Origin: Endozoicomonas arenosclerae
GTDB taxonomy: Bacteria > Pseudomonadota > Gammaproteobacteria > Pseudomonadales > Endozoicomonadaceae
Length of the DNA stretch: 44,889 nt
NCBI RefSeq assembly: GCF_001562015.1
Contig: NZ_LASA01000075.1
Coordinates: forward strand, 1 to 44,889
Direction: 5' to 3'
Under the pieces are notes generated by a model, which saw nothing but the letters and a program-made list of their open reading frames with translations, was not told the origin of the DNA and made no database searches. Positions 14,286-29,118 of this stretch are shown here, piece after piece. A program made the position numbers and the translations under genes. The stretch's first letter is position 1. Every line of letters begins with the position of its first letter.

Positions 14286-14653
14286 TCAGCATGTATTCTC
14301 AAGTCAGATATCACGATTTTCCATGACACGGCTTTACTGAAATCCGGCAGACTTCACTGACTGTTACCAACAGTGACAAGCCGATCTCGAACACCTGGCT
14401 ACGGTGTTATCCAGAATCATGGTGATATCAACAGGATACTGTACATCCATACAACATACCAGCAGCATCCCGGCGGTATCAGCGCAACAAACAAAACTTA
14501 CAATTCAAGAACACTGAATTACCAAACTCGCCTGTGAGTAACTGTGGAAGCAGCTTAGTATTCTCCGGGAAGCTTCTCATGGACTCTGTCCAAAGAGAGA
14601 AGGCTTCAATAGCTCCTGACTGATTTATTTCGTAAATGATCTGGAAACGATCA
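14286..14653. other. Gene-poor gap at the ruvC side of the 14-kb insert
   Basis: About 370 bases upstream of ruvC hold no convincing gene or strong hairpin. A minus-strand frame (14479-14748) reads through here but has no family features and faces a more plausible plus-strand membrane ORF. The junction of the large insert probably lies in this stretch; no direct repeat or integrase marks it. Confidence 0.4.
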
Positions 14654-14851
14654 ATGCCTGATCTAGTAAGAACATTAATGATTATCACTGGCATCATTGT
14701 TGTGCTGTTTATGCTTTTGGTAGGCTTCAATGTCTGGGCTTTTACCAATGTGCCTTCCAGGCTGGCTTCTCCGCCGGGAAAAGTAGCTATGGAGAGCCCG
14801 GCTGTATCTACTTTTAATGTTTGCTCTCACCCATTCAAGCTACCTTCCTGA
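14654..14851 (+). CDS. Possible small single-pass membrane protein
   Basis: From the ATG at 14654 (GGAA about 8 bases upstream) a 65-residue frame begins MPDLVRTLMIITGIIVVLFM, with one strong membrane helix (about 8-30) and a short Pro/Ser-rich tail with one Cys. No family is recognised. It is 193 bases upstream of the muramidase gene and on the same strand, so it could be an accessory to the holin/muramidase module (for example a small holin-like or antiholin-like protein), but this is only positional. It may be spurious. Confidence 0.4.
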   Translation: MPDLVRTLMIITGIIVVLFMLLVGFNVWAFTNVPSRLASPPGKVAMESPAVSTFNVCSHPFKLPS

Positions 14852-15044
14852 TACCATTAAACGTCAAATGACTTTTACCTGACTAATTAATACTTTAAAT
14901 ATCTAAAGCGCTCGTTATAAAATCAAAGAAGCCCTGGCCGATTCAAGTAAGTTCCAACTCTCACACTTGCAAAAAATATTGAATAAAACGTTAAGTGTTT
15001 GAAGAGATATCTGAACCATTGAACATTGGAAAAAGGATTTTTTC

Positions 15045-15578
15045 ATGGCTCTCTTTGATGCTGCGCTGGCGTCTACCCTCAAATCTGAGGGTGGCTATGT
15101 CAATGACCCTGCAGACCCAGGTGGCGAAACCTTTCAGGGAATCACTCGCACTCATTTTCCCAAATGGCAAGGCTGGGTTCGCATAGACCTGCTGAAAAAT
15201 GCCCAGAACTTCCCTGCCAACCTGAGTGACGATGACTCTTTAAAAAAACTGGTTCACGGTTTTTACCAGACCCATTTCTGGGACCGTATTCAAGGCGACG
15301 ACATTGAAAATCAAGAAGTTGCCGAGTCCATTTTTGACTTTGCCGTCAATGCTGGAACCCGAACCAGCAGCAAGTTAGCTCAAATTACTTGTGGTGAAAC
15401 CGCCGATGGTGTGATTGGTGATGCCACCCTGAGAAAACTGAATGCCGAAGACCCGAAAACATTTCTTGCCGTCTTTGCACTGAGCAAAATCAGCCGCTAC
15501 GTCAATATTTGTGAACAGCGTCAGGAAAGCAGGAAGTTTTTCTATGGCTGGGTGCGCAGAACTCTGGAGGGACTCTGA
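15045..15578 (+). CDS. GH108 muramidase (TtsA-like / phage-type endolysin)
   Basis: The 177-aa protein shows the glycoside hydrolase 108 signature SEGGYVNDPADPGGETFQGI, with catalytic Glu15. A C-terminal peptidoglycan-binding region (about 100-177, with DFAVNAGTRTSSKLAQ and ADGVIGDATLRKLN) follows, as in PG_binding_3 domains of this family. The family includes phage endolysins and TtsA, the muramidase that lets typhoid toxin cross the cell wall. There is no signal peptide, so a holin or similar is needed for access to the wall. AAGGA lies 7 bases before the ATG. The holin-like gene follows after 2 bases. Confidence 0.9.
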   Translation: MALFDAALASTLKSEGGYVNDPADPGGETFQGITRTHFPKWQGWVRIDLLKNAQNFPANLSDDDSLKKLVHGFYQTHFWDRIQGDDIENQEVAESIFDFAVNAGTRTSSKLAQITCGETADGVIGDATLRKLNAEDPKTFLAVFALSKISRYVNICEQRQESRKFFYGWVRRTLEGL

Positions 15579-15580
15579 TC

Positions 15581-16084
15581 ATGGCTAACTTCTTTACCCG
15601 TTTATTCAGCAAAAGTGCCAGCAGCCTGGTGGAAGCCGTAGGGGATGCGATTGATAAAAACTTCACCTCCGATGAAGAACGCAAGGAACTGGATCTGGAA
15701 TTAGCCAGAACCAGTATGAAGCACGAAGCCAGGTTGGCAACTTTGGGCTTACAGGAAAAACAGGCCTACCTGGCTGATACGGCAAGCGCAAGAACACACC
15801 AGAGTCGGGTACAGGAATCAGAGCACGGCAGCTGGCTGTCCAAGAATATTCAGCCTCTGCTGGCACTGTTTATTATTGGCGTCACTTTTTACATGTTCTG
15901 GTGGGTGATAGATCGTGGTGACGCCAAACTGGGCGAAGACAATGTCATGAAAGACATCATCATCTACATACTCGGCGCCCTCACCACGGTTTCCACTCAA
16001 GTGGCCTCCTACTTTTTTGGGTCCAGTCAGGGCAGTGCAGAGAAGCACAAGCAACTGGCCAAACTGACTCAGAAAAACCAGTAA
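15581..16084 (+). CDS. Holin-like protein (3TM/GTA-type holin family)
   Basis: The 167-aa protein has a charged helical N-terminus (1-85) and two clear membrane segments, about 91-110 (QPLLALFIIGVTFYMFWWVI) and about 125-147 (DIIIYILGALTTVSTQVASY), then FFGSSQGSAEKH and a Lys-rich tail. The NIQPLLALF and FFGSSQGSAEK features match the holin family described for gene-transfer-agent release. Such proteins form inner-membrane holes that pass a muramidase. It is 2 bases after the GH108 gene, with GGAGG 10 bases upstream of its ATG, and 10 bases before the pentapeptide gene, so all three are probably co-transcribed. Confidence 0.8.
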   Translation: MANFFTRLFSKSASSLVEAVGDAIDKNFTSDEERKELDLELARTSMKHEARLATLGLQEKQAYLADTASARTHQSRVQESEHGSWLSKNIQPLLALFIIGVTFYMFWWVIDRGDAKLGEDNVMKDIIIYILGALTTVSTQVASYFFGSSQGSAEKHKQLAKLTQKNQ

Positions 16085-16094
16085 GGATGTGGGT

Positions 16095-18083
16095 ATGCGA
16101 GTAGAGAAGAAATCTGCTGAAGAAAACAACGCATCGGACCAGCCCAGAGTCTTTAAGCACCGTTCCTATGTTGATCAGGACTATTCCAATCAGTCGTTGA
16201 TCGGTGCTGAGTTTGAAGAGGTCGATGTTCGATACAGCCGATTTAATAACAGCAATCTTGAGGGCGCTCGATTCAATTCCAGCAACAACCAGTATTGCGA
16301 CTTTAACCAGGCTAATCTGAAGAATGCCCGATTCCTCGATTGCGACCTTCAACATTGCGACTTCTCAACTTCAGAAAACCTGAATGAATTCCAGTTTTGC
16401 GGAAGTAATCTGTCGTATGCCGTGTTACCAGCCAACTTTTCCTTCGATTCTCTGGATTATATTCGTGACGGTGCCCGGCAAATCTGGGCGCTCTATCTGA
16501 CCATTCTGCTGGCCTGTCTTTATTCTCTTCTGGCCATTGGCTCTACCAACGACATAGACCTGTTGGGCAATGCCAAAGCGATCTTTTTCCCGATGCTGCA
16601 AATGTCCATTGCTACGGTGGGCTTTTATTATGTGGCACCAGTCCTTTTGATGTCGTTGATGGGGGCCTTTTATTACCAGCTGACCGTTTACTGGCACACT
16701 CTGAGAAAGCTGCCTGCTATTTTTCCTGATGGTTCACAGGTGACCATCAAAACCATGCCCAGTGTCATCGACACCGTGGTTGAAGCCTGCAGCCCTGTCT
16801 TGAAAGCCTCCCGACGTCATTCTGTTTTTGGTCTGATCAAGCTGGAACTGACTCTTGTCGCCCTGCTCTCGTCTATTCCTGTTACCTTACTGACCTACTG
16901 GATACGCTATTTGCCTCGCCAGGATATTGCCGGCTCTTCACTCCATGCTTTTCTATTTGCCATGTCGGTCTGTCTGGCCTGGCATACCTGGCTGGTGATT
17001 GGACGACAACTTCCAGAGCGACAACTGATTAACTCCAGCATTAAAACCTTCCTGTTCAGTGCCACGCTCATGGTAGGTAGCACTCTGTTTCTGCTTGAAG
17101 GCCCAAAACTGCCTTTCAGTTCGGTTTATATGGATGTCAGCAACCTGAACCTGACGCAACCGCCTGAAGTGAATGATGAAAAGAACAATCGTTATTCAGC
17201 CATGCTGGATGGTCGGAGTCTGAGATACGCACGAATGAATAAAGTGGATTTCCATCAGAGTTCTCTTCGTGGTGCTGACCTGACTGCAGCCTCCATTATG
17301 GAGTCCAACCTGTCAGATATGGTGATGAATCATATTGATGCCCGCTCCATTCGTCTCAGGTACTCCAATATTAAAGACAGCAAGCTCAGGCAGAGTAATT
17401 TTCAAAGGGCGGACTTTCATCAGACCGACCTTAGTGGTTCAGACTTTACCCAGAGCCAGTTGAATCATGCTGTATTCAGTAACAGCAAAATGGATCAAAG
17501 TATTTTTTCCAGAACTGACTTAACAGAATCCCGACTGGACAGAGTGAATGGCTCGAAAAGTAATTTTTCTATGGCAGTGCTGAACGGCACGACGTTTTTG
17601 CAAGCCAATCTTCCTGAGGCCATCTTTTACCTGGTAAATGTCACAGACGCTCACTTCTGGAAATCCAACCTCAGCAACAGCCAATGGGTCCTGGCCACTA
17701 TCCATGAGACGGATATGACCAAAGCCAGGCTTTATGCTGCCGATTTTTCACAGGCCGTGCTGGATAAAAGTCAGTTTGTTGATGCAGAAATGACCTCGGC
17801 ACTTTTTTTGTCTGCCAAGATCAGCCATGTCAGTTTTAAAGACAGTCAACTGGTCAATGCTGATTTCAGTGGAGCCCAGTTGAACAACGTCGATTTCAGC
17901 GGCAGTAATCTGAAAGGCGCCGATTTTACACATACCTGGTTTGAGGATGTCGATCTCTCTGGCAGCAACCTGAAACAAGTCATTGGGCTCAGGGAAGAAC
18001 AGTTAATGAATGCCAAGTTCGATGCCTCAACCCTTTTCCCCGCTTACATTAATCCGACACTGGTACAGAGTGAGGATCGCTGA
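16095..18083 (+). CDS. Membrane protein with pentapeptide-repeat domains on both sides of a multi-helix core
   Basis: The 662-aa protein (ATG at 16095, AAGGA 7 bases upstream) starts with about 15 pentapeptide repeats (about 33-110, such as SRFNNSNLEGARFNSSN). Five or so membrane helices follow (about 130-150, 165-198, 248-268, 282-302, 316-335), then a long C-terminal pentapeptide array (about 370-640, such as SDFTQSQLNHAVFSN and ADFSGAQLNNVDFSGSNLKG). Pentapeptide repeats fold as right-handed quadrilateral beta-helices. Function is not recognised; such proteins often act as scaffolds. The stop overlaps the next start by one base (TGATG), so it is coupled to the TorT-like lipoprotein and may act with it at the membrane. 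Confidence 0.85.
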   Translation: MRVEKKSAEENNASDQPRVFKHRSYVDQDYSNQSLIGAEFEEVDVRYSRFNNSNLEGARFNSSNNQYCDFNQANLKNARFLDCDLQHCDFSTSENLNEFQFCGSNLSYAVLPANFSFDSLDYIRDGARQIWALYLTILLACLYSLLAIGSTNDIDLLGNAKAIFFPMLQMSIATVGFYYVAPVLLMSLMGAFYYQLTVYWHTLRKLPAIFPDGSQVTIKTMPSVIDTVVEACSPVLKASRRHSVFGLIKLELTLVALLSSIPVTLLTYWIRYLPRQDIAGSSLHAFLFAMSVCLAWHTWLVIGRQLPERQLINSSIKTFLFSATLMVGSTLFLLEGPKLPFSSVYMDVSNLNLTQPPEVNDEKNNRYSAMLDGRSLRYARMNKVDFHQSSLRGADLTAASIMESNLSDMVMNHIDARSIRLRYSNIKDSKLRQSNFQRADFHQTDLSGSDFTQSQLNHAVFSNSKMDQSIFSRTDLTESRLDRVNGSKSNFSMAVLNGTTFLQANLPEAIFYLVNVTDAHFWKSNLSNSQWVLATIHETDMTKARLYAADFSQAVLDKSQFVDAEMTSALFLSAKISHVSFKDSQLVNADFSGAQLNNVDFSGSNLKGADFTHTWFEDVDLSGSNLKQVIGLREEQLMNAKFDASTLFPAYINPTLVQSEDR

Positions 18084-19165
18084 TGCTGCGCACATGGAAT
18101 GTACTCTGTTTATCTGTTCTGCTGGCAGCCTGCACTGACAGTGACATAAAAGAGCAAGATCAGGTGGCGATCAAAGGTTACTACGGTCAGTACGACGCCA
18201 GCCAGAAACTCTTCGCCCAACCTTCCCGATCCTTGTCTCTAAAGGAAGAAGACTTCTGGACTTTCTCAAAACCCGATGAAAAATCAGAAACACGCATAGG
18301 CATCCTGTTTCCCAACACCGAAAAAAATGATCCTTACTGGTCTGCTGTCAGAAGTGGCATTGAACAGGAAGCGAAGCGCTCCAATTTAAGTATTGAGCTT
18401 CTGGCCAGTGATAATTACAACAGCCTTGAGCAACACCGTAACCAATTTGAAACCCTGGCGAGCAGCGGTGTGGACGCTCTGATTTTAGGCTCCATGCATT
18501 ACCGGGCTATGGACAAACTGATCAACACAGCCAAACACGGTAAACAGGATAAACCTTTACCCATTGTTGGTATGATCAATGACCTTTACGCTCAGGAAGT
18601 GGACGGAAAAGTCATGGTCCCTTTCCTGGACATGGGTTATGAAGCCGGAGAATTTGTCAAACGCCACGCCAGGCATACAGGTCAGGAAAAAATCAGTGTT
18701 GCCTTTCTTCCCGGACCGATTAATGCAGGCTGGGCACCCGACAGTCTGCTCGGATTTGTGAATGCCATGCGAAGCTTTAATGGAGCCTTTGAGTTAAAAG
18801 GCCCATTTTGGGGCAGCGTGGATGGCGACCTGCAACAACTGCTGGTTGAAAAGGCCTTTGAAGGCAATCAGTCAATCGATTACCTTGTCGGCAATGCGGT
18901 CGCTGCAGTAAAAGCGGCAGAGCTGGTGAAAGTGATGGGACTGGAAAAGGACGTTTTTGTTGTCTCCACCTATTACAGCCCAGCATTAGAGCCGTACATT
19001 CAAGCCGGAGAAATTCTTGCCGCCCCTTCCGACCAAACAGAACTGCTTGGCAGAATAGCTGTAGATATGGCTCTTAAACTCATCGAAGGAGAAAAGTCCG
19101 GAACCGATTTTCCTTTTCGTGTATCACCCCACATTCCTATTATCACTGCTTACCAGTTTGAATAA
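18083..19165 (+). CDS. TorT-like periplasmic binding lipoprotein
   Basis: The 360-aa protein begins with a lipoprotein signal ending LLAAC (lipid Cys17). A type-I periplasmic binding fold of the Peripla_BP_4/TorT kind follows, with IGILFPNTEKNDPYWSAVRS, GVDALILGSMHYRAM and a C-terminal DMALKLIEGE segment. In TMAO respiration TorT binds the ligand and presents it to sensor kinase TorS. Here no torS, torR or torCAD lies nearby. Instead the gene is translationally coupled (TGATG) to the pentapeptide membrane protein, which could be its partner. The ligand is unknown. A 200-base gap without a clear terminator separates it from the next gene. Confidence 0.75.
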   Translation: MLRTWNVLCLSVLLAACTDSDIKEQDQVAIKGYYGQYDASQKLFAQPSRSLSLKEEDFWTFSKPDEKSETRIGILFPNTEKNDPYWSAVRSGIEQEAKRSNLSIELLASDNYNSLEQHRNQFETLASSGVDALILGSMHYRAMDKLINTAKHGKQDKPLPIVGMINDLYAQEVDGKVMVPFLDMGYEAGEFVKRHARHTGQEKISVAFLPGPINAGWAPDSLLGFVNAMRSFNGAFELKGPFWGSVDGDLQQLLVEKAFEGNQSIDYLVGNAVAAVKAAELVKVMGLEKDVFVVSTYYSPALEPYIQAGEILAAPSDQTELLGRIAVDMALKLIEGEKSGTDFPFRVSPHIPIITAYQFE

Positions 19166-19365
19166 TTTTGTGATTTCAAAACAAAGTCTAACAAGCTATT
19201 ACACGACATTTGACTTTAATAACCGCTTGTCAGAAAAGTAAAACATTCAATTTAATCCAGCCACCCCACTGTCGATAGCTTCCCTTACTGCCAAAAGCAG
19301 TCAGATGTATGCCCGATGACAAAATCAATTAAAAAACTCTTATCTAAATCAGGAAGCTTTCAACA

Positions 19366-20088
19366 ATGAGTGACCAAGACACGAGCAACTACGACAACCT
19401 AGTCTCTTTTTTGCAGGCAAAACAAGCTCTGGGTACCAGCATTAATGACTCAGTGACATTTCTTGTCGATAACACCGATCCTACCGTAAAAAATGTTGTA
19501 GATAGTGCCACTATCAATGACTGGGCCAAAGCCATTCATACCGTCTGGATCAAGACCATCACTCTTTCTCAACTGGTAGAAGGACTTGGAAAAGTAAACC
19601 GTTTCTCTTCGGAAGACATCAACACTACAGCCAATATTTACTTCCTGGAAATCCAGATTGAAGTGGACACCGCTAGCATTCTGAGCCAGCACAACAAGGA
19701 CGGAAGCAGTAATCCTATCTTTGTCGATTCTTACATCAAAATGACCAGTAACCATGTCAGTACCACCAGTGGTCAGGGCACCAACGAACTGGATACTGAA
19801 GAACTGGTTCCTAATGAAAGCATTGAATGGACTGCAGTTAGCAAAAACGGTTCTGACACCATTCAGCTGAAACGTTTTCATGCCAGTCCTATCAATCCAA
19901 ATGCCGACTTCAAAGCCATTATCAGTGATCCGGTTCCTGAGTCCGGCTCCTCCAACAAATACTCCAGCTATGTGATACAGCATCCGCAGCCTGACTTCCG
20001 CAAGGCTTACAGCTTTGACTTCACCATCAACAACGGTACCCAGCTGTTCACCTTTGATCCGTGGTTGGGTGATTTGAGCAAGCCATAA
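19366..20088 (+). CDS. PixA/AidA-like inclusion-body family protein (tentative)
   Basis: The 240-aa protein has no signal peptide. After an 85-residue helical lead, residues about 90-235 show the order of short motifs seen in the PixA/AidA family: a strand NIYFLEIQIEVDT, then SGQGTNELD (135-143), NESIEWTAVSKNGSDTIQL (about 150-168), a Pro-rich ISDPVPESG, and a final FDFTIN plus FTFDPWLGDL. PixA forms cytoplasmic protein inclusions in Xenorhabdus. The extra N-terminal helical domain is not usual. AGGAAG lies 9 bases before the ATG. It may begin a separate transcript and is followed by a 9-bp stem-loop. The family call rests on motif order only. Confidence 0.5.
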   Translation: MSDQDTSNYDNLVSFLQAKQALGTSINDSVTFLVDNTDPTVKNVVDSATINDWAKAIHTVWIKTITLSQLVEGLGKVNRFSSEDINTTANIYFLEIQIEVDTASILSQHNKDGSSNPIFVDSYIKMTSNHVSTTSGQGTNELDTEELVPNESIEWTAVSKNGSDTIQLKRFHASPINPNADFKAIISDPVPESGSSNKYSSYVIQHPQPDFRKAYSFDFTINNGTQLFTFDPWLGDLSKP

Positions 20089-20117
20089 CGCATCATCTTC
20101 CCAAGAGAAACCACAAG

Positions 20118-20137
20118 CCTTCCCTGCACAGGGAAGG
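20118..20137. other. Perfect 9-bp stem-loop between the PixA-like gene and the next gene
   Basis: CCTTCCCTG-CA-CAGGGAAGG is a perfect palindrome 30 bases after one stop and 32 bases before the next start. No T-run follows. It could be an mRNA-stabilising 3' structure that raises the level of the upstream gene relative to the downstream ones. Confidence 0.5.
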
Positions 20138-20169
20138 TGTTACTCAACTCATTTTCAAGAGACACAACC

Positions 20170-21618
20170 ATGTTCAGCTTTACAAATGCAGAACAGGAGG
20201 GTTTTCTGCCCTTCAGCAACACTGTGACCTATTTTGGTACAGGCAACCTCAAGCCCATTTCCAAAGCGTTTAAAGCCGTTACCCGTAACGCCGACGCACT
20301 GGCAACATTGTCTGACACTTATCCGGACATTCAAGCCAGCAATATTCCACTGGTCGGCTCTATTGATGTGGAGACGGGTATCTACATGAATGGCCAGGAT
20401 TCCAAGTGCGTTTATCAGGTCAACAATGTCAGTAACACCAACATCAAAACAGTTGAAGATTTCATTCAACTGTCCCCCATCGTTCAGGCCATGAAACTTC
20501 AGGTACCTACCACCCGGGTCATGCGCTTTCAGGAAAAGATGAGATTGGCCAGGCAGTCTTCCTACGCTATGGAAATCTCCATGATTCGTGGCTACAGACA
20601 AGCATCTGAAGCCATTCTGTCAGCCATCAACGAGAGCAATTCAGAAAAAGATTTCTATTACAGTGCCGGTAAAGCTCTGTTAAGTGCAGTTGCTGCTGCC
20701 GCAGTTATTGCAACAGCCGGAGCAGCTATTCCAGCCATTGCAGGAGCTATTGGCGTTCCATCTCTGGCTTTAACACTCTACGGGACCGAACTCAGCGAAT
20801 ACAAAACGGAAGCCACTATCAAGAGCTTTGTCGGAACCATTATCAATGCTGTAGTCAGTGCTAACTTGACCAGTACGACTGATGTCGGGCTTAGACTGGT
20901 TTACGAGAAAATGGAAATCTCGGAGCTTCTTAAAGATGTACTGTATGGATTCTTTGAATCTGAAATAGACAATCGTGTTGCTACTACTCGTGACAGTGTC
21001 TACCTGGCGGCACTGGCATATCAATTCAAGTATGCACCTGGCAATCAGGTGAGCCCTACTCCTATAAACACAACCAACGCTGATCGCTGCCTGAGTGATC
21101 TTTATACCTGCCTGAAAAACAATCTCGTAGCCAATCCAATCAATGAAAAAGCCTATCAAGTTTTAAACATGCCTGAGTTTGCCCAACTGATCAAAAAGCT
21201 GACTTGTCTGTCCTACGCAGCAGAAGCCAGCATCAGTGGAAAAACGACATTGCAGTCTCATATTCTGCAAAACGCAGGTATGATCAATCACAAGAAAAGC
21301 TTATTCGAGAAAGTGACCTTTAAGAAGCAGAAGGCTCCGGTGACATATAGCCGCCAAGGCGCACTGGGCGGGAGCCAGCTGGATATTCTCACCCTGCTGA
21401 ATTCACCACTCACCTCTGAGCAAAAAGCCAATATGCGCAGCTATGTCATAAAGCTCAACAGCAATATGCAGACCACCGAGACAACTCTGAGTTCTAACGA
21501 TCTGAACACACTGAAAACCCTGAAAGGTGCTGGCATAGCAGCAAAAATCAGTGAGATCCTGATCGCTCTCTTCCAGGGAGCGAACCAAACCTATGAGCCA
21601 AACAACAATCAGAATTGA
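20170..21618 (+). CDS. Unknown 482-aa mainly helical protein with a long hydrophobic Ala-rich segment
   Basis: No family is recognised. From the ATG at 20170 (AAGAGA about 8 bases upstream; a GTG 33 bases earlier is in frame inside a hairpin) the protein has no signal peptide. Residues about 120-165 are amphipathic helix. Residues about 167-204 form a hydrophobic stretch (SAVAAAAVIATAGAAIPAIA then GAIGVPSLALTLYG) long enough for a helical hairpin. The remainder is helical with a Gln/Asn-rich tail. A soluble protein with one buried hydrophobic hairpin recalls alpha-helical pore-forming toxins, but no signature proves this. The next gene starts 33 bases later. Confidence 0.75.
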   Translation: MFSFTNAEQEGFLPFSNTVTYFGTGNLKPISKAFKAVTRNADALATLSDTYPDIQASNIPLVGSIDVETGIYMNGQDSKCVYQVNNVSNTNIKTVEDFIQLSPIVQAMKLQVPTTRVMRFQEKMRLARQSSYAMEISMIRGYRQASEAILSAINESNSEKDFYYSAGKALLSAVAAAAVIATAGAAIPAIAGAIGVPSLALTLYGTELSEYKTEATIKSFVGTIINAVVSANLTSTTDVGLRLVYEKMEISELLKDVLYGFFESEIDNRVATTRDSVYLAALAYQFKYAPGNQVSPTPINTTNADRCLSDLYTCLKNNLVANPINEKAYQVLNMPEFAQLIKKLTCLSYAAEASISGKTTLQSHILQNAGMINHKKSLFEKVTFKKQKAPVTYSRQGALGGSQLDILTLLNSPLTSEQKANMRSYVIKLNSNMQTTETTLSSNDLNTLKTLKGAGIAAKISEILIALFQGANQTYEPNNNQN

Positions 21619-21651: not shown

Positions 21652-22035
21652 ATGAGTGCAGGCAATATCAACACAGACATTGTAATCGGAGACGATACCT
21701 ACAATGTTGAAGTGAATATCCCTTCTGACAACAAGGCTCCTTATCTGTTTAAGGTGGCAGATAACAAAGTAAACCTGATTGGGCTTGCCATAAAGGGCGG
21801 TGAAACCGTCAATAATGTAGAGCAGCCTGATGATGTCTTTCTGACTGTAAGCCCTCCACCAACCATTCTCCCGGACATGATTAAAAACCTGAATGTCTCT
21901 TTCTATAACGGGAATTACACACCTGAAAGCAACCCTATTGGCGAACCAGATGGTAACAATACGCCTGTCGTTAACCCCACTTCCGATGAAGAGAAACTGA
22001 AGTTAATTAACGGGATTACAGACAACATTGGCTAA
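21652..22035 (+). CDS. Small protein of unknown function, first of two tandem paralogues
   Basis: The 127-aa protein begins MSAGNINTDIVIGDDTYNVE and contains VNIPSDNKAPYLFKVADNKV, LIGLAIKGG and VSPPPTILPDMIKNLNVSF, probably a beta-sandwich of about 85 residues, then a Pro/Asn/Gly-rich tail. It is clearly related to the next gene (22258-22656): the same NTD/QTE-IVIGD-YNV start, the same IPSDD, the same LSPP-x-LFP and the same position of a disordered tail. AAGGA lies 8 bases before the ATG in both genes. No known domain is recognised. Confidence 0.75.
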   Translation: MSAGNINTDIVIGDDTYNVEVNIPSDNKAPYLFKVADNKVNLIGLAIKGGETVNNVEQPDDVFLTVSPPPTILPDMIKNLNVSFYNGNYTPESNPIGEPDGNNTPVVNPTSDEEKLKLINGITDNIG

Positions 22036-22075
22036 GGATTTGTCTCGAAATAACTTCTCGGTTTACATAGGGATT

Positions 22076-22138
22076 CCGTTCACCCTGAGCTTGTCGAAGG
22101 GTCGTGGCATTGGGCTTCGACAGGCTCAGCCCGAACGG
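22076..22138. repeat. 63-bp REP-like palindromic element, copy 1
   Basis: CCGTTCACCCTGAGC and GCTCAGCCCGAACGG form the ends, with TTGTCGAAG and CTTCGACAG inside, giving an imperfect inverted repeat around a 15-nt centre. A second copy of the same length lies at 28868-28930. Elements with this CTGAGCTTGTCGAAG core are scattered in many bacterial genomes. It separates the two small paralogues. Confidence 0.85.
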
Positions 22139-22257
22139 GTTTGAGAAGGGTTCCACAAGGAAATTATTTCAGGACTATTCCTAAGTACTAACAGTGTCTC
22201 ATTCAAAGTGGAGATACATGGTGTTCTCCACCCTTTCAATCTTCAAGGATGAAAACG

Positions 22258-22656
22258 ATGGCTGAAGTCGATATTCAAACCGAACTGATGGTCGGCGACT
22301 CACAGTACAATGTTCAGGCAGATCTGCCCTCCGACGATATTACTGCTGAACATCCCTACAAGTTCCGTATCCAGGAAGAAGAGCAGGATCTGGTTGCCCT
22401 GGCTATGGGTGGTACAGATGCCCAGACTCAAAAAGAAAACCTGCTGCTTAAGCTCAGTCCTCCTGCATCACTGTTTCCCAAAACAGGAAAAATACAGCTG
22501 AAATCCCTGACCGTAAAAGTGGCTTCGGGACAGTTTAAAACCACTGACCCATTCAACCCTGACCCAGCTAACCCCGGCGGTGATAAACCTGCAGACCCGA
22601 CGAACAATGATGCAAATCAGGGTAACAACGACAACGGACAAAAAGATCCGAACTGA
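22258..22656 (+). CDS. Small protein of unknown function, second of two tandem paralogues
   Basis: The 132-aa protein (ATG at 22258 chosen because AAGGA then sits 8 bases upstream, exactly as in its paralogue; an ATG 9 bases earlier overlaps that RBS) begins MAEVDIQTELMVGDSQYNVQ. The core (about 1-92) has DLPSDD, YKFRIQEEEQDLVALAMGG and LKLSPPASLFPKTGK. The tail (about 95-132) is Pro/Asp/Asn-rich and probably disordered. The stop is 2 bases before the start of the 1077-aa gene, so the two are tightly coupled. Function is unknown. Confidence 0.75.
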   Translation: MAEVDIQTELMVGDSQYNVQADLPSDDITAEHPYKFRIQEEEQDLVALAMGGTDAQTQKENLLLKLSPPASLFPKTGKIQLKSLTVKVASGQFKTTDPFNPDPANPGGDKPADPTNNDANQGNNDNGQKDPN

Positions 22657-22658
22657 TT

Positions 22659-25600
22659 ATGACCAAGGTGCTGGAAGATTATCAGGTCAGCCTTGAAGGT
22701 CAGGCGCTGATCGAAAAACAACAGGTTGATTTCATCACCCGTTATGATGAAAGCACCCTGGTATTGGCTATTTCCAACGCAGAGCTGGATCTGCAATCCC
22801 TGCTCGACCAGAGAGTTCAGGATTTCAATCTGGTTCTGCCCGACAATGGCAACATGGGTCTGGCCAGTCTGCAAGGTCAGTTGATGTTAACTGAAGGTGA
22901 GCAAGCCTTTCGTTTTGACGCCCTGTTTTCTAACATCTGTCCACCCTTCCCCTACCTGAAAGATACTGTCCGCTGCACCTATGGACACATAGCTTTTCAA
23001 TACACCCCAGCACAACCGGATCAGCAGAAGGACAAAGAGCTCAGCCTGATAGCCGAGGCAGCTTTCACCTTCACAGGCACCCTGCAGGGCGTTCTGCCTG
23101 ACACTCAGGGTGCCTGGGTAATGACCAATAGCGCGTCCCTTGCCTTTGTTAATTTCACCGGTCAGCTGGATCTGGCAAAAATCATTAATGCCCTGTTTGC
23201 CACAGAATTGAACTGGGGAACGATCGATATTCATAAGGCAGGCATGCTGCAGATCAGCACCACCAGCAAGGGCTCTGAAGCTGTCAGCCAACTGAAGCAA
23301 GCGACAGATGATTCTGAAACCAGCTGGCCAAAAGAACTCCCTCCCCTGGAGTACACACCAACACAGGTCAACCTTCCTGAAATCTTGCCGCTGAACTTGC
23401 TAGGCAGTGACTTCCAACTGGTAAAAGGGAGCTGCTTCTGGTTTGACATCGCCTTTCAACAGTTCTCGCTGTTCAATAATCTGGTCAAAGTCGGATACAA
23501 CGACAGTGGACAAATAGTCTTCTATGGGTTGGTCGGCTTAACCCGAGACAGTCAGGGCAAAGAAGTTCAAAGCAAAATTCTATTTGCTCAACTGCCCCGG
23601 ATAACACTGCTCAATTTTCTGACTTTTCAAGGCTCCCAAGGGCGCAAGGGAATCCAGCTTCAGTATGAACTGGGTCAAAATAAACACTTCGCTCTGGATG
23701 GGCAGATTGCTCTGGACGTCTTCGATAAAGAGTATGCTTTCGACGGCGCTCTGGATGTCACGGATCAGGCCTATACAGGAGAATTGATTCTTGCCGGGGA
23801 CTCCCCCAACCAGAGCATCAGCCAGCCTTTCAGCGAACCTTCAGAAGATGAGAAAGGAGACCCGGTCGGGGGAATGCTGGGCATAGAGCTTTATCAGCTG
23901 GAGTTTAAGGTTGAGCATACCTTCGAAGTGGCTGACAAAGAGCAACCGGAAAACAACAAGCCAGCGAGCACCGATATCAGCCTGCAGTGCCATGTTGAAA
24001 TCCTTAAGATTAATTTTACCGGGGAATTAATCTACACCGACAACAGTCCGCAGCTGGCGGTGATCACACTGGATCAGGACAAGCCGCTCTCACTGACGGA
24101 TATGATCACGTCTGTCTTTGGACAAAGCTGGCATTGGATGGATGCGGTTACGGATAAGTTTGCCCTGTCCAATGGTCAAATGTATTACCTGAAAGCACCG
24201 GATAAAGCGCCGGACAATTACACGTTAACCCGGCAAAATATTGTCTATCACCCCGGCTATCATGTTTCAGCTCAACTGAAGATTTTCAGCTATCTGTTCA
24301 ACTTTGATCTGGCCGTCATTAAAAAGGGCATTCTGTTAAAAGCAGGCCTGGATGCATCCACCCCTCTGGATGTTTTATTCATTCATTTTGATCAGCCCAA
24401 TCTGACCATTGATACTACAGGATCGAATAAAACCTTCACCTTTGGTTCCAGAATTTATTTCTTCAGTGACGACAGCAATTACTTTCAACTGTCCACCACT
24501 TACAACGACGGCACTTTCACAGGTTTTGTGGAAGCACACCTTGGCACCGTTACTTTACCCGGTTCCGGAGAGCTGGCGGAAGAAACCGAAAAGTCAGGAG
24601 TTAACCTGACGGTCTACTTCAAATGGTCTGAAACATCCAATTTCGAAATCACCCGAATAGATGGCCTGCCCGTCGGCACTCTGAACCTGATTGAACAGAT
24701 GGCCAATAGACTGAATCAATTGTCGGGCAGTGGTTGCGAAAAAGTGGCCAAGGAGATGATGGGAGATTTATGCAAAACCCAAATATCCCCCTCACTGAGA
24801 GATGTTCCCAGTGAAGACGGCAGTAATATGGTATTTCCAGCGGTGCTGACCTACCAGATGTCACTGGCGGGCTATGATATTTCAGAACCCATTGATATTG
24901 ACCTGAAGTTCAAAACGCCTCACAGTCTTTCTGACCTGCCCGCCTCCCTGTTTCTGGGTATTTTCAGCAACGCCGCGTATGTTGCCGAACAAATGTTGAA
25001 AAATCCCAGAACTTACCAAGCCATCGCCATTGAAGCCGGTAAAAGAGGACTGATCAGCCTGGCTGCCAGAATGCTTTGCCGGGCTCTGAAGAATTTTGAA
25101 AGAGCTGTGGTTGATGCCATTGTTGATGGGCTCAGTGGTGTAGTCGCAGCTACACTGGCAGAAGCTATAGAACTGGCCGCTGTGATGACTACAGCGGTTC
25201 TAACCGGCATCAGTGTTGTGGTTGGGCTGTTGAAAAAGTTCTGGAACTGGCTGACGGGTAAAGACGACGACAAAAAGAAAGAAGCCGAACAAAAAATCCG
25301 AGCAGCTCGTACCAAGATTCAAAGCCAGCTCGATATCCTCTTCAGCAAAGTAAAAGTGATTCAGGATACTCAGCTTCAGTATCTTAAAGTGGGCATCAAT
25401 ACTCAAAACAACTTCACCGCCAACTGGGATCCGGCCACCGACCTTCTACAAAGTGGCCAGAGTAGCGATAACCTCAGTATTGATTACAATCTGACCCTGC
25501 TTTCTGGCCAACCGGGCGACACTCATGGTCAACCCTGGCAAAACAGCTCCAACATAACCCTTAAAGGTGTTCAGAGTACCCAGTATGAAAAGCCACTGTC

Positions 25601-25892
25601 GCAAATCCCGGATAGCAACAACTTCCATCTTAATGCCTCTGTTTTTTGTACATTAGAAGGCTTTGTATTTGCCAGTGACCAGACTCGCTCATCCATAGAA
25701 AGCAGTATCCAGAGCCTCAGAAAAGTCGATGACAGCCTGGCTAAAGAGTTTGCCAGTGAGCTGGAAGGAAACCTCCAGAGACTGGAAACACTGAACAAGG
25801 GCATCCAGTGTCAGCCCGTTTACGCATCTGTCGATGACAGCAATGCATTCACTGTAGGCTTGAGTCGCATCGGCTTGAACACCAGACTTTAA
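22659..25892 (+). CDS. Unknown 1077-aa protein, beta-rich with a hydrophobic segment and a charged linker
   Basis: No family is recognised and there is no signal peptide. Residues 1 to about 720 are rich in alternating beta-strand patterns with repeated units about a hundred residues long (for example FTGTLQGVLPD, FTGQLDLAKIINALF, FTGELIYTDN), suggesting a large multi-sheet protein. At about 815-858 a hydrophobic region (VVDAIVDGLSGVVAATLAEA then AVMTTAVLTGISVVVGLL) is long enough for a helical hairpin. A KFWNWLTGKDDDKKKEAEQK linker and a coiled coil (about 880-910) follow, then another beta-rich end. The layout is compatible with a membrane-inserting or toxin-like structural protein; this is inference. 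It is coupled to the upstream small paralogue and followed by the 577-aa gene after 23 bases. Confidence 0.8.
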   Translation: MTKVLEDYQVSLEGQALIEKQQVDFITRYDESTLVLAISNAELDLQSLLDQRVQDFNLVLPDNGNMGLASLQGQLMLTEGEQAFRFDALFSNICPPFPYLKDTVRCTYGHIAFQYTPAQPDQQKDKELSLIAEAAFTFTGTLQGVLPDTQGAWVMTNSASLAFVNFTGQLDLAKIINALFATELNWGTIDIHKAGMLQISTTSKGSEAVSQLKQATDDSETSWPKELPPLEYTPTQVNLPEILPLNLLGSDFQLVKGSCFWFDIAFQQFSLFNNLVKVGYNDSGQIVFYGLVGLTRDSQGKEVQSKILFAQLPRITLLNFLTFQGSQGRKGIQLQYELGQNKHFALDGQIALDVFDKEYAFDGALDVTDQAYTGELILAGDSPNQSISQPFSEPSEDEKGDPVGGMLGIELYQLEFKVEHTFEVADKEQPENNKPASTDISLQCHVEILKINFTGELIYTDNSPQLAVITLDQDKPLSLTDMITSVFGQSWHWMDAVTDKFALSNGQMYYLKAPDKAPDNYTLTRQNIVYHPGYHVSAQLKIFSYLFNFDLAVIKKGILLKAGLDASTPLDVLFIHFDQPNLTIDTTGSNKTFTFGSRIYFFSDDSNYFQLSTTYNDGTFTGFVEAHLGTVTLPGSGELAEETEKSGVNLTVYFKWSETSNFEITRIDGLPVGTLNLIEQMANRLNQLSGSGCEKVAKEMMGDLCKTQISPSLRDVPSEDGSNMVFPAVLTYQMSLAGYDISEPIDIDLKFKTPHSLSDLPASLFLGIFSNAAYVAEQMLKNPRTYQAIAIEAGKRGLISLAARMLCRALKNFERAVVDAIVDGLSGVVAATLAEAIELAAVMTTAVLTGISVVVGLLKKFWNWLTGKDDDKKKEAEQKIRAARTKIQSQLDILFSKVKVIQDTQLQYLKVGINTQNNFTANWDPATDLLQSGQSSDNLSIDYNLTLLSGQPGDTHGQPWQNSSNITLKGVQSTQYEKPLSQIPDSNNFHLNASVFCTLEGFVFASDQTRSSIESSIQSLRKVDDSLAKEFASELEGNLQRLETLNKGIQCQPVYASVDDSNAFTVGLSRIGLNTRL

Positions 25893-25915
25893 CTGCATGA
25901 TCCAGGGACAGGAAA

Positions 25916-27649
25916 ATGCCTGATTTAACCAATATCGTCAGAGAGAAGTACTACAACAATCAGCTGCTGGAAGTGGCGGACTTTGACCGTGAACAATCCT
26001 TCCATATACAGCACCGCCTGCTTCAAACTCGCTTGATGTACACACCGGGATTGCTTCAGGGAATAACTGTTGAAGCCCGTACAGCCGGAATTTCACTGAC
26101 TCCCGGCATTGCCCTGGACGCCAGTGGCCAGCAGATTTTACTGGTGAACAGCCTGCAACTGGATGGCAAAACCATCACTGCGTCCCAAGGACAGTTCACT
26201 CTTGATCTCAGCGCTCAAAACTATTTAAACAACAGTTTTTACCTGTTCCTGCAGTTCAACGAAGTTGATGTACCGAACACTTCCAATCAATTGATCAGCA
26301 GTCCAACTCTTTCTCTTCAAAGCCAGCAGGCGAATGGTTCTGGTATTGTCTTGGGTAAAGTCACCCTGGGTTCGGCTCAGGATAAAGTCTCCCTGGATAG
26401 CTCGATGAGAGTTCAGGCAAGGCTTCGTTCAGAGATGATGCCCAGCATCAGTGCTTCACAAATAATCAGTGGAACTCTGTCATCAGATCGCTTACCAGAA
26501 CTCTCTGCCGGTCTGATTACAAAAGGTGTTTTCAGTCTTGAGCAAATACCGGACATTCCTGCAGGCAAACTTCAGAAAAGCCTTTCACTGTCTTGTGAAA
26601 AAATGACTCTGGAGAATCAGGATACCGCTACGCTTCAGTGGCAGAGTCAGGGCATTGATCAGCTGGACATCGAATACGTTTCCGGGCTGAAGCTTGTAAC
26701 ATTGAGCAGTAAGGATCAATCCATTGCGTTGACTGGCAGTCATGAAGTAGAACCTTATGAAAACACAACTATTACTCTCAAAGGCAGTAAAGAGGGGAAA
26801 ACAGTGGTGACTGAGCAGCTCTATCTCAATGTTATTCCAACGGCTGGCCAGTTTATTAAACAGCTTATTGATCAGGGAGTGAGCCAGGGCCAACAAATAA
26901 CTCAATGCGCAAACCGCTTCAAACTCAGTACATTATCTGCCGAGAATGTGACCCAACTGGGTGAAGCCGTAAAGTTTGCAGGTTATGAATTCGAAAATGC
27001 CCTGTCTGCATTGAAAACCTTTTATCAATCCATAGGCGACAGTTGGTCTGACACATCAGACACCAAAATCATTCAGAACCTGTATGGCATTAAACCCGAA
27101 GCCAGCCTTGAGGAGTTCCTTCAACAACAGTTCAACCAACAGATCACATTGCCTGTTGCCATTACCAAGGCAAAACAACAATTCGATCTAAACCTGAACC
27201 AAACTACTGACCAGGAAAAGTTGGCTCAGGCATTGAAGAAGGTGGGCTATATCGATTGGCAGGTATTACAAGCTGTTATGAGTGCTTCAAATCAAGCAAG
27301 CCAATGGTCAAGCTATGTTCCGATTGCAACTTCACTTTCACTATTCACACCGGACTCAGTGGCACAATACATTCAGAACCTGAATCAATCCACACTGATT
27401 GCAAACAGCGGACAAATGTCACTGATTGATTTCCAGAAGCTGGTTTATCAAAAGATTTTCTTGCAGGTAGCTCAACAGTTTGCCCCCAACATCAAGGAAT
27501 ACTGGGTGTACTGCATGGCGATTGCGTTAAAGAAACAAGGCGTCAGCCAGGTAGTCACAGGCTACTGTCTGACCGAGTATTTCAAACTAAAAGGATGGAG
27601 TTACGGATTCAACTATTCGCTGATTCTTATTTCAGCCTATAAGAACTGA
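25916..27649 (+). CDS. 577-aa protein with a tail/baseplate-like N-terminal module and an alpha-helical C-terminus
   Basis: The N-terminal 70 residues read REKYYNNQLLEVADFDREQS, then HRLLQTRLMYTPGLLQGITV and LTPGIALDASGQQILL. This is the YY-x-LL-x-DF-x-EQ-x-H-x-R-x-N/T-R-x-GL-x-G-V pattern with a following PGxAxDxxGxxI, seen in a broad family of bacterial proteins, some associated with phage-tail-like or contractile structures. Next comes a strand-rich region with an Ig-like part (about 225-310, LENQDTATLQWQSQGIDQLD). Residues about 315-577 are helical with repeating FNQQITLPVAITKAKQQF-like units. No signal peptide. The function is inferred only weakly as structural or host-binding. The stop lies 10 bases from the convergent gene. 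Confidence 0.8.
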   Translation: MPDLTNIVREKYYNNQLLEVADFDREQSFHIQHRLLQTRLMYTPGLLQGITVEARTAGISLTPGIALDASGQQILLVNSLQLDGKTITASQGQFTLDLSAQNYLNNSFYLFLQFNEVDVPNTSNQLISSPTLSLQSQQANGSGIVLGKVTLGSAQDKVSLDSSMRVQARLRSEMMPSISASQIISGTLSSDRLPELSAGLITKGVFSLEQIPDIPAGKLQKSLSLSCEKMTLENQDTATLQWQSQGIDQLDIEYVSGLKLVTLSSKDQSIALTGSHEVEPYENTTITLKGSKEGKTVVTEQLYLNVIPTAGQFIKQLIDQGVSQGQQITQCANRFKLSTLSAENVTQLGEAVKFAGYEFENALSALKTFYQSIGDSWSDTSDTKIIQNLYGIKPEASLEEFLQQQFNQQITLPVAITKAKQQFDLNLNQTTDQEKLAQALKKVGYIDWQVLQAVMSASNQASQWSSYVPIATSLSLFTPDSVAQYIQNLNQSTLIANSGQMSLIDFQKLVYQKIFLQVAQQFAPNIKEYWVYCMAIALKKQGVSQVVTGYCLTEYFKLKGWSYGFNYSLILISAYKN

Positions 27650-27659
27650 GCTTAACCAC

Positions 27660-28760
27660 TCATAGGAGACCCAGAAAACCGGAACCAAACCCCTGCTCCC
27701 TTCGGGTAGGAATATCATCGCCTACTTGTACTTCTCTGGAATTACCTGATGATTCAGTATCGGGAAACTCCTCATCAGAGTCGAACATTTCAGACTCTGG
27801 TAGCCCATGACAGGGAACCTGGACAACAGGACCGGTCACCACGACAGCAGGCTGAGGAGCCGGCAACACCAGGGGATTTACCTGACAGTCAGCAAGAATA
27901 CTGGAGCTGGATATGGCAGACTCGCTGGTTACCGGCCACCAGGTAACCCTATAACCATTGAAATACAATACAATCCCCCGAACGACTCTCCAGGTGCCCG
28001 AACCAGTCACTTCTCGTCTGACAACCACCTTCCAGTTAAATGAGTACGCCATACCAAATATTCTATATAACCATCCATAGTCAGGTCGGATAGTGTGGCA
28101 TGCGTAGTGATCAGATTCTGAAATTTGAAGTTGTTCGGGCAAAGAACAACGCCTGAAGCTGGTTAACCTTACCCTGCTGCGATGTTGAGTATAAAAGTCA
28201 AAAAGAAAGTGAGGTTGTCGAATCTGGCTCATCATGAAAGCTTCTGACTGAGTACCAATCCATAGCCAGAAAGGAAGATAAGTGTTACTCAGAGTCACAG
28301 GGCTTTGAGCATACTTTCTTTCTGACTTATCCAGATAGCTGGCTGATACCTTCACCACCCCATTAGAGTAGATATAAGACGGATAATAAGTGGTGTATTC
28401 CTCTCTCCCCTTGCTTACCAGTAACTTAAAGCCTTCAGGCATTACAGACATTAAACCAGACACAATACTGTTCAAATCATGTTGCAGGGTGATTTTAACG
28501 TATTGTTCCTCTTTATTGACTGTATGGCCCTCTGTTCTCTCCAGCGTTGTAGTCCCCGATGCCATCAATACAGGACAGCCCCACAAAGAAGGCACTCTCT
28601 CGATATTAAAGGTGTATGTGTTCGTCAGTTGATCTGTAACCGTCACTTCACTGTGAACTGGAGTCGCTTGATCCCTGCTCTGCTTTGGGCCTTGAGCTAT
28701 AGCAGACAAGCTCAACAACAGAGACGTAAATATGACTGCTCCAGTATGAACAACTGTCAC
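27660..28760 (-). CDS. Secreted protein of unknown function with an acidic C-terminal tail
   Basis: The 366-aa frame starts at GTG 28758-28760 with AAGG 7 bases upstream. A signal peptide (MTVVHTGAVIFTSLLLSLSA, cleavage after AIA) is followed by a strand-rich region with many Tyr/Trp residues and about five cysteines (GCPVL, RRCSLP, YACHT, ADCQV, PCHGL), so disulfides are plausible. A Pro/Val linker and an acidic Ser/Glu/Asp tail (DSDEEFPDTESSG) lead to a short GFGSGFLGLL end. No known domain is recognised. It is convergent with the 577-aa gene and is the last gene of the insert before yebC; it may belong to a separate acquisition. Confidence 0.75.
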   Translation of the reverse strand: MTVVHTGAVIFTSLLLSLSAIAQGPKQSRDQATPVHSEVTVTDQLTNTYTFNIERVPSLWGCPVLMASGTTTLERTEGHTVNKEEQYVKITLQHDLNSIVSGLMSVMPEGFKLLVSKGREEYTTYYPSYIYSNGVVKVSASYLDKSERKYAQSPVTLSNTYLPFWLWIGTQSEAFMMSQIRQPHFLFDFYTQHRSRVRLTSFRRCSLPEQLQISESDHYACHTIRPDYGWLYRIFGMAYSFNWKVVVRREVTGSGTWRVVRGIVLYFNGYRVTWWPVTSESAISSSSILADCQVNPLVLPAPQPAVVVTGPVVQVPCHGLPESEMFDSDEEFPDTESSGNSREVQVGDDIPTRREQGFGSGFLGLL

Positions 28761-28867
28761 GTGATAGCCTTCGTAGCTCTGACGGGACGTTGAATTCTAG
28801 ACGATCTAAAGCTGACAGTTTGTTATCTTTGCACTAGTGCAGCCAAGCATTAATGCCAATACATACT

Positions 28868-28930
28868 CCGTTCATCCTGAGCTTGTCGAAGGATGCGGGT
28901 AGTGCACTTCGACAGGCTCAGTGCGAACGG
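28868..28930. repeat. 63-bp REP-like palindromic element, copy 2
   Basis: CCGTTCATCCTGAGC and GCTCAGTGCGAACGG form the ends, and the inner TTGTCGAAG and CTTCGACAG are identical to copy 1 at 22076-22138. The centre differs. It lies in the 358-base gap between the secreted-protein gene and yebC, near the right edge of the insert. Confidence 0.85.
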
Positions 28931-29064
28931 TATGGGGTTTAACGCTCAGCCGCTCTAGATTATTTTGAAGTTACTTTTATGTTTATTTCTCGGTGAGTTC
29001 CGCTTTGTCTGTATAGAATTTTCAGGGAGCGGTTAGATACTTAAGTAAGCAGGAAAAATCAGAA

Positions 29065-29100
29065 TAAAAAAAGCCCCGACACTTTCGTGATCAGGGCCAC
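29065..29100 (-). terminator. Intrinsic terminator of aspS-yebC
   Basis: Read on the minus strand, GCCCTGA and TCGGGGC pair (one G-T), then a single-base bulge, CAC-GTG and a GAAA tetraloop, followed directly by TTTTTTT. It starts 19 bases after the yebC stop, a standard rho-independent terminator. Confidence 0.85.
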
Positions 29101-29118
29101 TTTGAAGGAAGGAACAAC

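Follow-up and report, generated by a model that had tools for sequence, protein, structure and literature searches.

A strain-specific gene block between ruvC and yebC of Endozoicomonas arenosclerae, with a lysis pair and a predicted fibre-like protein

The 14-kb block that lies between ruvC and yebC in Endozoicomonas arenosclerae is strain-specific. We tentatively read it as encoding a lysis-released, fibre-bearing protein complex without a needle, a reading that we consider a serious possibility although we stop short of calling it probable. The complex would be assembled in the cytoplasm and leave it when the producing cell lyses. In this mechanism g1 (muramidase) and g2 (holin) would act as the release pair, g3 and g4 may make release respond to an external signal, the orphan proteins g5–g9 would be organised by g10 or serve as its docking site, and the hydrophobic stretches of g6 and g9 would be suited to membrane entry. 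We infer the assembly, the release by lysis, the membrane action, the signal control and the joint work of the ten genes. The window, i.e. the whole stretch of DNA that was analysed, is 44,889 nucleotides long.

The ruvC–yebC site

Both flanking genes are on the minus strand, with ruvC ending at 14,285 and yebC starting at 29,119, a spacing of 14,833 bp. The initial annotation had described a 14-kb insertion of about ten plus-strand genes and one minus-strand gene, and this proved real: of the long ORFs in the interval, ten lie on the plus strand and a single convergent one on the minus strand. A comparison across relatives, which had also been proposed there, covered nine other genomes of the same genus, with interval lengths given as tblastn bounds. 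Five have just 0.39–0.68 kb between the two genes (about 393 bp in G002, 527 in G003, 653 in G004, 392 in G005 and 683 in G007). Since the other four hold different material (1.9 kb in G008, 5.75 kb in G001, 23.5 kb in G006 and 23.6 kb in G009), we regard the interval as a variable site. The block had been called settled; its codon use, which is like that of the flanks, agrees with this (GC is slightly lower), whereas the block genes occur at the site in none of the nine genomes.

The limits of the insert and its landmarks are as follows.

14766..29047, no strand: inserted block, bounds from the empty sites of G002, G003 and G004
14636..14851, plus strand: left-border small ORF, a peptide with one hydrophobic stretch, containing MPDLVRTLMIITGIIVVLFMLLVGFNVWAF
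22084..22129, no strand: first copy of a palindromic repeat element, between g7 and g8
28876..28921, no strand: second copy of this palindromic element, close to the block's right end

The insert of about 14.3 kb is flanked by the small conserved ORF beside ruvC and by the yebC terminator. Homology to these three closest empty sites breaks off at about 14,765, within the 3' end of the left-border ORF, and is back at about 29,048–29,057. Similar ORFs are present in six same-genus intervals, and the peptide has no Pfam match at E ≤ 0.01. The lack of an integrase, tRNA or direct repeat was confirmed: the ten plus-strand proteins include none of the prophage hallmarks integrase, capsid, terminase and portal (integrase, capsid and terminase families were sought in Pfam at E ≤ 1 and PHROGs at E ≤ 0.1), the window contains no tRNA, and no exact direct or inverted matches of at least 9 bp link 14,651–14,900 with 28,951–29,118. 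In the limited literature collection searched, we found no papers on an insertion or genomic island between ruvC and yebC.

Gene content of the block

The plus-strand genes fall into two groups, g1–g4 and g5–g10.

15045..15578, plus strand: g1, GH108 muramidase with PG_binding_3 (endolysin)
15581..16084, plus strand: g2, 3TM-type holin
16089..18083, plus strand: g3, membrane protein with five hydrophobic segments (132–336) flanked by N- and C-terminal pentapeptide-repeat regions
18083..19165, plus strand: g4, TorT-like periplasmic binding protein with a lipobox (LAAC), overlapping g3 by one base
19366..20088, plus strand: g5, 240 aa, no family above cut-off, no N-terminal hydrophobic segment
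20137..21618, plus strand: g6, 493 aa, Ala-rich hydrophobic stretch at 180–198
21652..22035, plus strand: g7, 127 aa, paralogous to g8 at 29% identity (E 3e-15)
22249..22656, plus strand: g8, 135 aa, paralogue of g7
22659..25892, plus strand: g9, 1,077 aa, with a pair of neighbouring hydrophobic segments at 816–857
25916..27649, plus strand: g10, CIS13-type N-terminal docking domain (about 1–120), fibre-type repeats and C-terminal region
27660..28760, minus strand: g11, 366 aa, signal-like hydrophobic segment at the N-terminus, convergent with g10

Spacing is tight within much of the array (2 bp for g1–g2, 4 bp for g2–g3, 2 bp for g8–g9 and 23 bp for g9–g10). At the wider gaps of 200 bp (g4–g5) and 213 bp (g7–g8) the array may be split into separate transcripts, which counts against a single complex. 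Promoter-like sites are fewer than in shuffled sequences (6 versus 18), and terminator-like sites show no excess (16 versus 14.7).

The muramidase/holin release module of the initial annotation was upheld, and it heads the tight array. g1 matches PF05838 above the cut-off (5.6e-23) and PF09374 (6.2e-11) in Pfam, as well as phrog_315, an endolysin family, in PHROGs (3.4e-35). g2 matches the holin family phrog_3427 (2.8e-11), falls below the cut-off of PF11351 (0.008; 17.1 of 24.8 bits), and has one hydrophobic segment above the scan threshold. Homologue searches with g1–g3 were confined to phages or plasmids. Proteins like g2 were found in phages and in the contractile injection system (CIS) clusters of G005, G010 and G035, where their genes follow the one for the CIS ATPase at a distance of 1–2 kb; a phage lysozyme gene precedes the ATPase gene in G005.

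The next two genes had been taken for a probable sensing pair. A true sensor-kinase pair is not supported: g4 is a TorT-like lipoprotein, with scores below the cut-offs of NCBIfam TorT models (188.8 of 200 bits for NF008185 and 153.3 of 310 for TIGR02955), and its partner g3 is a pentapeptide-repeat membrane protein without a kinase domain. Pentapeptide and TorT-like proteins belong to common families with many other roles, which also counts against one complex. g4 is the sole plus-strand lipobox ORF of at least 45 aa in the block, which leaves room for single-protein spanins.

None of g5–g10 has an N-terminal hydrophobic segment or a signal peptide. The description of large proteins without a signal peptide was upheld; g10, however, carries a recognised domain, CIS13_fam. 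For g5, neither the collections searched nor the nine other same-genus genomes yielded a significant relative. g6, which could also start at ATG 20,170 (482 aa, with a better ribosome site by eye), has only sub-threshold matches (DUF554, 0.0087; Phage_head_fibr, 0.034). g8 is probably 132 aa from ATG 22,258, again judged by eye. Searches for relatives returned only the query itself for g6 in 57 relatives and for g9 in 57 relatives and 369 class genomes; neither has any in plasmids, phages, IMG/VR or GTDB contigs (r220 for g9), the IMG/VR and GTDB contig scans using exact 8-residue peptides and so detecting close relatives only. With no significant relatives found for g5, g6 or g9 in these collections, there is no co-occurrence evidence that ties them to g1–g4 or g10.

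Structure was of little help here: the g9 model has a mean pLDDT of 33.5, unusable for a fold search, and PDB searches with g5, g6, g9, g10 and a g7/g8 profile gave nothing usable. In the PDB, g9 matched a designed repeat protein (0.018); this and its sub-threshold PHROG matches to holin (0.007) and tape-measure (0.014) families were judged compositional, on the same grounds as the LeoBC match below. We also rejected a defence system. PADLOC, run on the nine block proteins other than g7 and g8, gave a weak LeoBC match at 821–1029 (3.6e-5), in the hydrophobic/helical C-terminal part; it was taken as compositional because the P-loop motif looked for is missing from every block protein. The minus-strand g11 has no family in Pfam (E ≤ 0.01) or NCBIfam (E ≤ 0.1) and probably lies outside the gene array.

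The two groups of genes may instead be unrelated modules, with g1–g4 forming an envelope-stress or controlled-lysis unit and g5–g10 a separate cytoplasmic set that arrived at another time. We regard this as possible but doubtful. The 200-bp gap between g4 and g5 would fit it, and stacked insertions are plausible because the cargo between ruvC and yebC differs in G001, G008 and G006/G009. However, g1–g10 are all on one strand with similar composition throughout, a lysis pair of CIS/phage type together with a CIS-type fibre gene suits a single theme, and a g2-like gene also occurs in the CIS clusters of G005, G010 and G035.

The CIS13-type domain and the search for an injection machine

g10 is predicted from its sequence to be a tail-fibre-like protein with a CIS docking domain. 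Its N-terminal domain matches NCBIfam CIS13_fam (NF053767) at 5.6e-6; the full-length score, a point against our reading, lies far under the cut-off (25.8 of 370 bits), although so does that of L053 (107 bits), which is in a CIS locus. A profile built from the five other rows of alignment A2 gives g10 65.5 bits, where 1,000 shuffles reach 5.1 at most; the A2 rows were found using g10, so this test is partly circular, and the NCBIfam match is independent. With g10 included, profile A2 matches the Anabaena CIS protein All3314 (PDB 7b5h, 5.5e-5) and 9wt0 (0.0029). Behind the domain, at about residues 180–220, lie the fibre-type repeats ISGTLSSDRLPELSAGLITKGVF, which recur in a 736-aa protein encoded next to the G005 CIS cluster. 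The C-terminal region (226–577) is unmatched among the ORFs of CIS loci.

Elsewhere the domain keeps company with injection machines. It occurs in 10 other genomes among 369 of the class (E ≤ 1e-4), adjoining CIS genes (baseplate or ATPase) in nine; the tenth is on a 4-kb contig, too short to tell. Six plasmid records match g10, and all four of those opened are CIS loci (L051 and L052 by annotation, L053 by Pfam and L054 by seed proteins). No relatives of g10 were found in IMG/VR or phages, and a limited literature collection yielded no papers on an orphan tail fibre or baseplate.

In the window, 16 CIS seed proteins (sheath, tube, spike, baseplate, tape-measure and ATPase) match no ORF at E ≤ 0.01. 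The genome-wide CIS search consisted of the tube family PF06841 together with CIS13_fam and A2. This genome has no PF06841 match (4 of 57 genomes are positive), and CIS13_fam and A2 find g10 alone.

Phages or CISs contain kin of each of g1, g2 and g10, which raises the prospect of a CIS or phage remnant: having lost its contractile genes, it would retain a fibre, a lysis pair and part of its accessory or cargo proteins, all without a function. We consider this unlikely: every block ORF is open and closely packed, and the seed proteins match nothing in the window at E ≤ 0.01. Nor is the block just what is left of a CIS of the local type, because the two large fibre-like proteins seen at the G005 CIS cluster begin differently and CIS13_fam was found in none of the 56 other relatives searched.

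It would be more surprising still if the cell encoded a CIS at another locus, missed in the draft or of a type unseen by our searches, and the block supplied its cargo and an accessory fibre. The docking domain is CIS-linked in nearly the whole sample and the genome is a 327-contig draft, both of which would suit this explanation. It is nevertheless listed as 100% complete, PF06841 finds no tube here yet does in four relatives, and CIS13_fam and A2 reveal no second CIS13-type protein in the genome.

Comparison with known systems

A likeness of g5 to PixA/AidA inclusion body proteins (PF12306), which the initial annotation had seen, was rejected as unsupported, g5 giving no profile match at E ≤ 1. 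PF12306 is not found in this genome either, which is weak evidence because that search matched no genome at all and hence had no positive control. The TorT–TorS–TorR system resembles the block in the TorT-like binding protein g4; it differs in that g4 has a lipobox and stays under the TorT cut-offs, and that its partner is the pentapeptide-repeat protein g3 and no histidine kinase.

Type 10 secretion, e.g. of the Yersinia entomophaga Tc toxin, offers a closer parallel: muramidase and holin genes head an array of large signal-less proteins, and the block would likewise act by releasing assembled complexes. The block muramidase is of the GH108 type, whereas the archetypes have endolysins that cleave cross-links. 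Archetype cassettes comprise holin, endolysin and spanin, whereas the block has no spanin-like plus-strand lipobox ORF besides g4, and its cargo lacks Tc domains (no TcA, TcB or TcC family in g5–g10 in Pfam at E ≤ 1, or in g5, g6, g9 and g10 in NCBIfam at E ≤ 0.1). The Y. entomophaga lysis cassette is not near its Tc cluster, so a lysis cassette need not belong to the cargo beside it.

CISs share with the block the N-terminal domain of about 120 aa in g10, which is of CIS13 type like the N-terminus of All3314, the fibre-type repeats behind it and a nearby 3TM-type holin gene. The block differs in having no seed matches, no tube match in its genome and an unmatched C-terminal region in g10. A more specific form of our preferred reading, the lysis-released complex, is a needle-less CIS relative in which the docking/fibre part was cut loose and organises orphan membrane-active proteins into a particle, with release by holin and muramidase and control by the lipoprotein. 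This version is rather unlikely; if true, it would mean delivery without sheath or tube. The intact CIS13-type domain, the lack of any tube gene found, the lysis pair ahead and the proteins without detected relatives beside it suggest that CIS parts are reusable for other released complexes. Tailocins are lysis-released protein assemblies. The block would, if this holds, add one more class to the few such assemblies (Tc toxins, eCIS).

The ruvC-yebC interval as a variable site

The initial annotation had proposed that a cargo block was inserted between ruvC and yebC, and comparison of this interval in nine other genomes of the genus bears this out. In the window, which is the entire contig C231 (44,889 bp) of a 6.45-Mb genome in 327 contigs, 14,833 bp separate the two genes and contain ten long plus-strand ORFs, here called g1 to g10 in order, and one convergent minus-strand ORF, g11.

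13,758-14,285, minus strand: ruvC
29,119-29,865, minus strand: yebC

yebC was found in all 10 genus genomes searched, including our own, and the adjoining DNA was taken for the other nine. The interval is short in G002, G003, G004, G005 and G007 (about 393, 527, 653, 392 and 683 bp, respectively) and long in G008 (1.9 kb), G001 (5.75 kb), G006 (23.5 kb) and G009 (23.6 kb). No block gene has a match in the stretches compared from these nine genomes (tblastn E<=1e-3; E<=1e-5 for further stretches of G006 and G009). The window is homologous to the three closest empty sites as far as ~14,765 on the left and again from ~29,048-29,057 on the right, so the insert measures about 14.3 kb.

The left border falls within the 3' end of a small ORF (14636-14851), located upstream of ruvC on the opposite strand, which encodes a peptide with one hydrophobic stretch, has no Pfam match and has counterparts in all six same-genus intervals examined (L023, L024, L025, L027, L030 and L031). 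The right border lies just ahead of conserved sequence at the yebC 3' end that reads like a terminator. As the initial annotation stated, neither a tRNA nor a direct repeat marks the block: the window yielded no tRNA, and the borders have no common exact direct or inverted match of at least 9 bp.

Other occupied sites carry different cargo, which identifies the ruvC-yebC interval as a variable site. The G001 site holds an IpgD-domain protein and a partial second yebC:

L026 (stretch from G001), 1166-4261: 1,031-aa protein, IpgD domain (1.5e-10)

The G008 site encodes a secreted-looking protein with no Pfam match, and the intervals of about 23.5 kb in G006 and G009 (stretches L028, L029 and L108) consist mostly of giant DUF11-bearing proteins. 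In G009, about 9 kb separate ruvC from the gene normally next to it, with a 23-aa remnant of ruvC left at the old place (L108 4623-4691). The block resembles its flanking genes in codon use and is slightly lower in GC, and is therefore either old in the lineage or derived from a donor genome of similar composition.

Two further features of the window were observed. A palindromic repeat (CCTGAGCTTGTCGAAGG ... TTCGACAGGCTCAG) is present in two copies, at 22084-22129 in the g7-g8 gap and at 28876-28921, close to the block's right end. The right-hand core of the repeat was not seen in the other loci compared, save those overlapping the window. Between ruvB and the tol genes, the minus strand (6618-10022) encodes a hybrid histidine kinase of 1,134 aa with a PAS domain, an unusual member of this neighbourhood.

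Genes of the block

The muramidase/holin module recognized earlier is supported by family matches. g1 encodes a muramidase of family GH108 that carries a peptidoglycan-binding domain; the protein resembles phage endolysins (phrog_315), and 530 phage records match it at E<=1e-3. g2 has a hit to a PHROG holin family (2.8e-11) and one below the cut-off to the GTA family of 3TM holins; it also matches 16 phage records, some of which are annotated with holin and endolysin at that place. No spanin was recognized in the block. The first four genes are closely spaced (g1-g2 2 bp, g2-g3 4 bp, g3-g4 -1 bp). g4 encodes a lipobox-bearing TorT-like binding protein, and TorT-like relatives in G008, G010 and G027 adjoin sensor-kinase-like and response-regulator-like genes, as judged from ORF starts. 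Its partner g3, in which pentapeptide-repeat regions flank five hydrophobic segments, has no kinase domain, so that the sensing pair suggested previously is not supported as a true sensor-kinase pair.

None of the six proteins encoded by g5 to g10 has an N-terminal hydrophobic segment, in agreement with the earlier description of large proteins lacking a signal peptide. That they belong to no recognized family holds for g5 and g6, which match none above the cut-off (for g6, DUF554 at 0.0087 and Phage_head_fibr at 0.034 stay below threshold), but not for g10. g7 and g8 are mutual paralogues (E 3e-15). Hydrophobic stretches occur in g6 (Ala-rich, residues 180-198) and g9 (two, adjacent, residues 816-857). 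Among 57 related genomes g6 was detected in our own alone, and so was g9 among these and 369 genomes of the class; neither was found in plasmids, phages, IMG/VR or GTDB r220 contigs, the last two scanned by exact 8-residue peptide matching, which reaches close relatives only. g5 has one further match among the 57 relatives (E 0.05) and no plasmid match. For g9, a fold model computed from the one sequence alone was of unusable quality. The convergent g11 is probably separate from the array.

The g10 docking domain and contractile injection systems

Residues 6-91 of g10 match CIS13_fam, an NCBIfam model of a contractile injection system (CIS) protein (5.6e-6), with a score that falls far short of the full-length cut-off; among the 57 genomes, g10 alone matches this family. 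A translated plasmid search with g10 returned six records. Four of them were opened, and each is a CIS locus: those of Haloferax and Cereibacter are annotated as such, Pfam families identify that of Paenibacillus, and matches to gp25 and baseplate seed proteins identify that of Embleya. With 569.8 bits, the Haloferax protein qualifies as a full member of CIS13_fam. An alignment of this N-terminal domain, A2, hits PDB 7b5h (5.5e-5), at the N-terminus of All3314 from the Anabaena system, and PDB 9wt0 (0.0029), a protein with a PKD domain. PMC8894136 names All3315 as Cis12 and All3316 as Cis13, which makes All3314 Cis11 by order; the docking domain thus appears not to be confined to a single baseplate or fibre component of CIS. 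A profile from the five other A2 rows scores g10 at 65.5 bits, compared with 5.1 for the best of 1,000 shuffles. Since g10 itself led to these rows, the score is partly circular, but the NCBIfam match does not depend on them.

Searching the 369 class genomes with A2 gave 11 positives at E<=1e-4, including our own. CIS genes lie beside the domain in nine of the ten others (16 seed proteins, E<=1e-4), the ATPase being the sole CIS gene seen in one of these (L099), while the tenth stretch (L097), a 3,953-bp contig, has no CIS gene match. Three of the CIS loci (L100, L102 and L103) each have three neighbouring docking-domain matches, in ORFs that differ in length; it is as if one socket served several fibres or wedges. 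In the window, none of the 16 seed proteins matches any ORF at E<=0.01, and a search for the CIS tube family PF06841 came up empty in our genome but positive in 4 of the 57 genomes searched, among them G005 of the same genus. g10, whose domain is linked to CIS elsewhere, is therefore an open gene for a docking protein of CIS type, and no CIS tube was found in its genome.

The G005 cluster provides further links:

L066-L068 (G005, contig C1), about 129-164 kb: CIS cluster with two sheaths, three tubes, tape measure and ATPase
Same cluster, further members: phage lysozyme, holin-like gene, eCIS_core ORF, two large fibre-like proteins

Fibre-type repeats at residues ~170-220 of g10 are common with a 736-aa protein adjoining this cluster; the N-termini of this protein and of a 2,419-aa protein at the same place differ from that of g10. 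Proteins similar to g2 (E 6e-6 to 2e-4) are encoded 1-2 kb behind the CIS ATPase gene in G005, G010 and G035; the ORF next to the g2-like gene carries an eCIS_core domain (PF13699) in G005 and G035, and a phage lysozyme gene lies ahead of the ATPase in G005. Phage-type lysis genes thus occur beside CIS genes in this bacterial family. The stretch fetched from G016, the fourth CIS genome, matches neither g2, the ATPase nor the tape measure, and hence falls short of the ATPase part.

A putative released complex

The best-supported reading is that a complex would be put together in the cytoplasm and set free once g1 and g2 open the cell. g10 would act as the adaptor of the particle and the orphan proteins would form its body, while g6 and g9 may act on the membrane and g3/g4 may give signal control. 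The strongest rival is that two unlinked modules lie side by side. Two gaps of about 200 bp (g4-g5 and g7-g8) could separate transcripts, and promoter- and terminator-like sites are no commoner than in shuffles. The earlier observation of the block is confirmed, with its labels corrected, and the inserted genes make a good candidate for a released complex of undescribed kind that incorporates a CIS part. The most useful part of the observation is g10, whose domain had not been recognized from sequence alone. Among known systems, Y. entomophaga has Tc holotoxins whose assembly inside cells precedes release by a lysis cassette (PMC10847048), and the N-terminal domains of Anabaena Cis13 form a trimer bound to the baseplate (PMC8894136).
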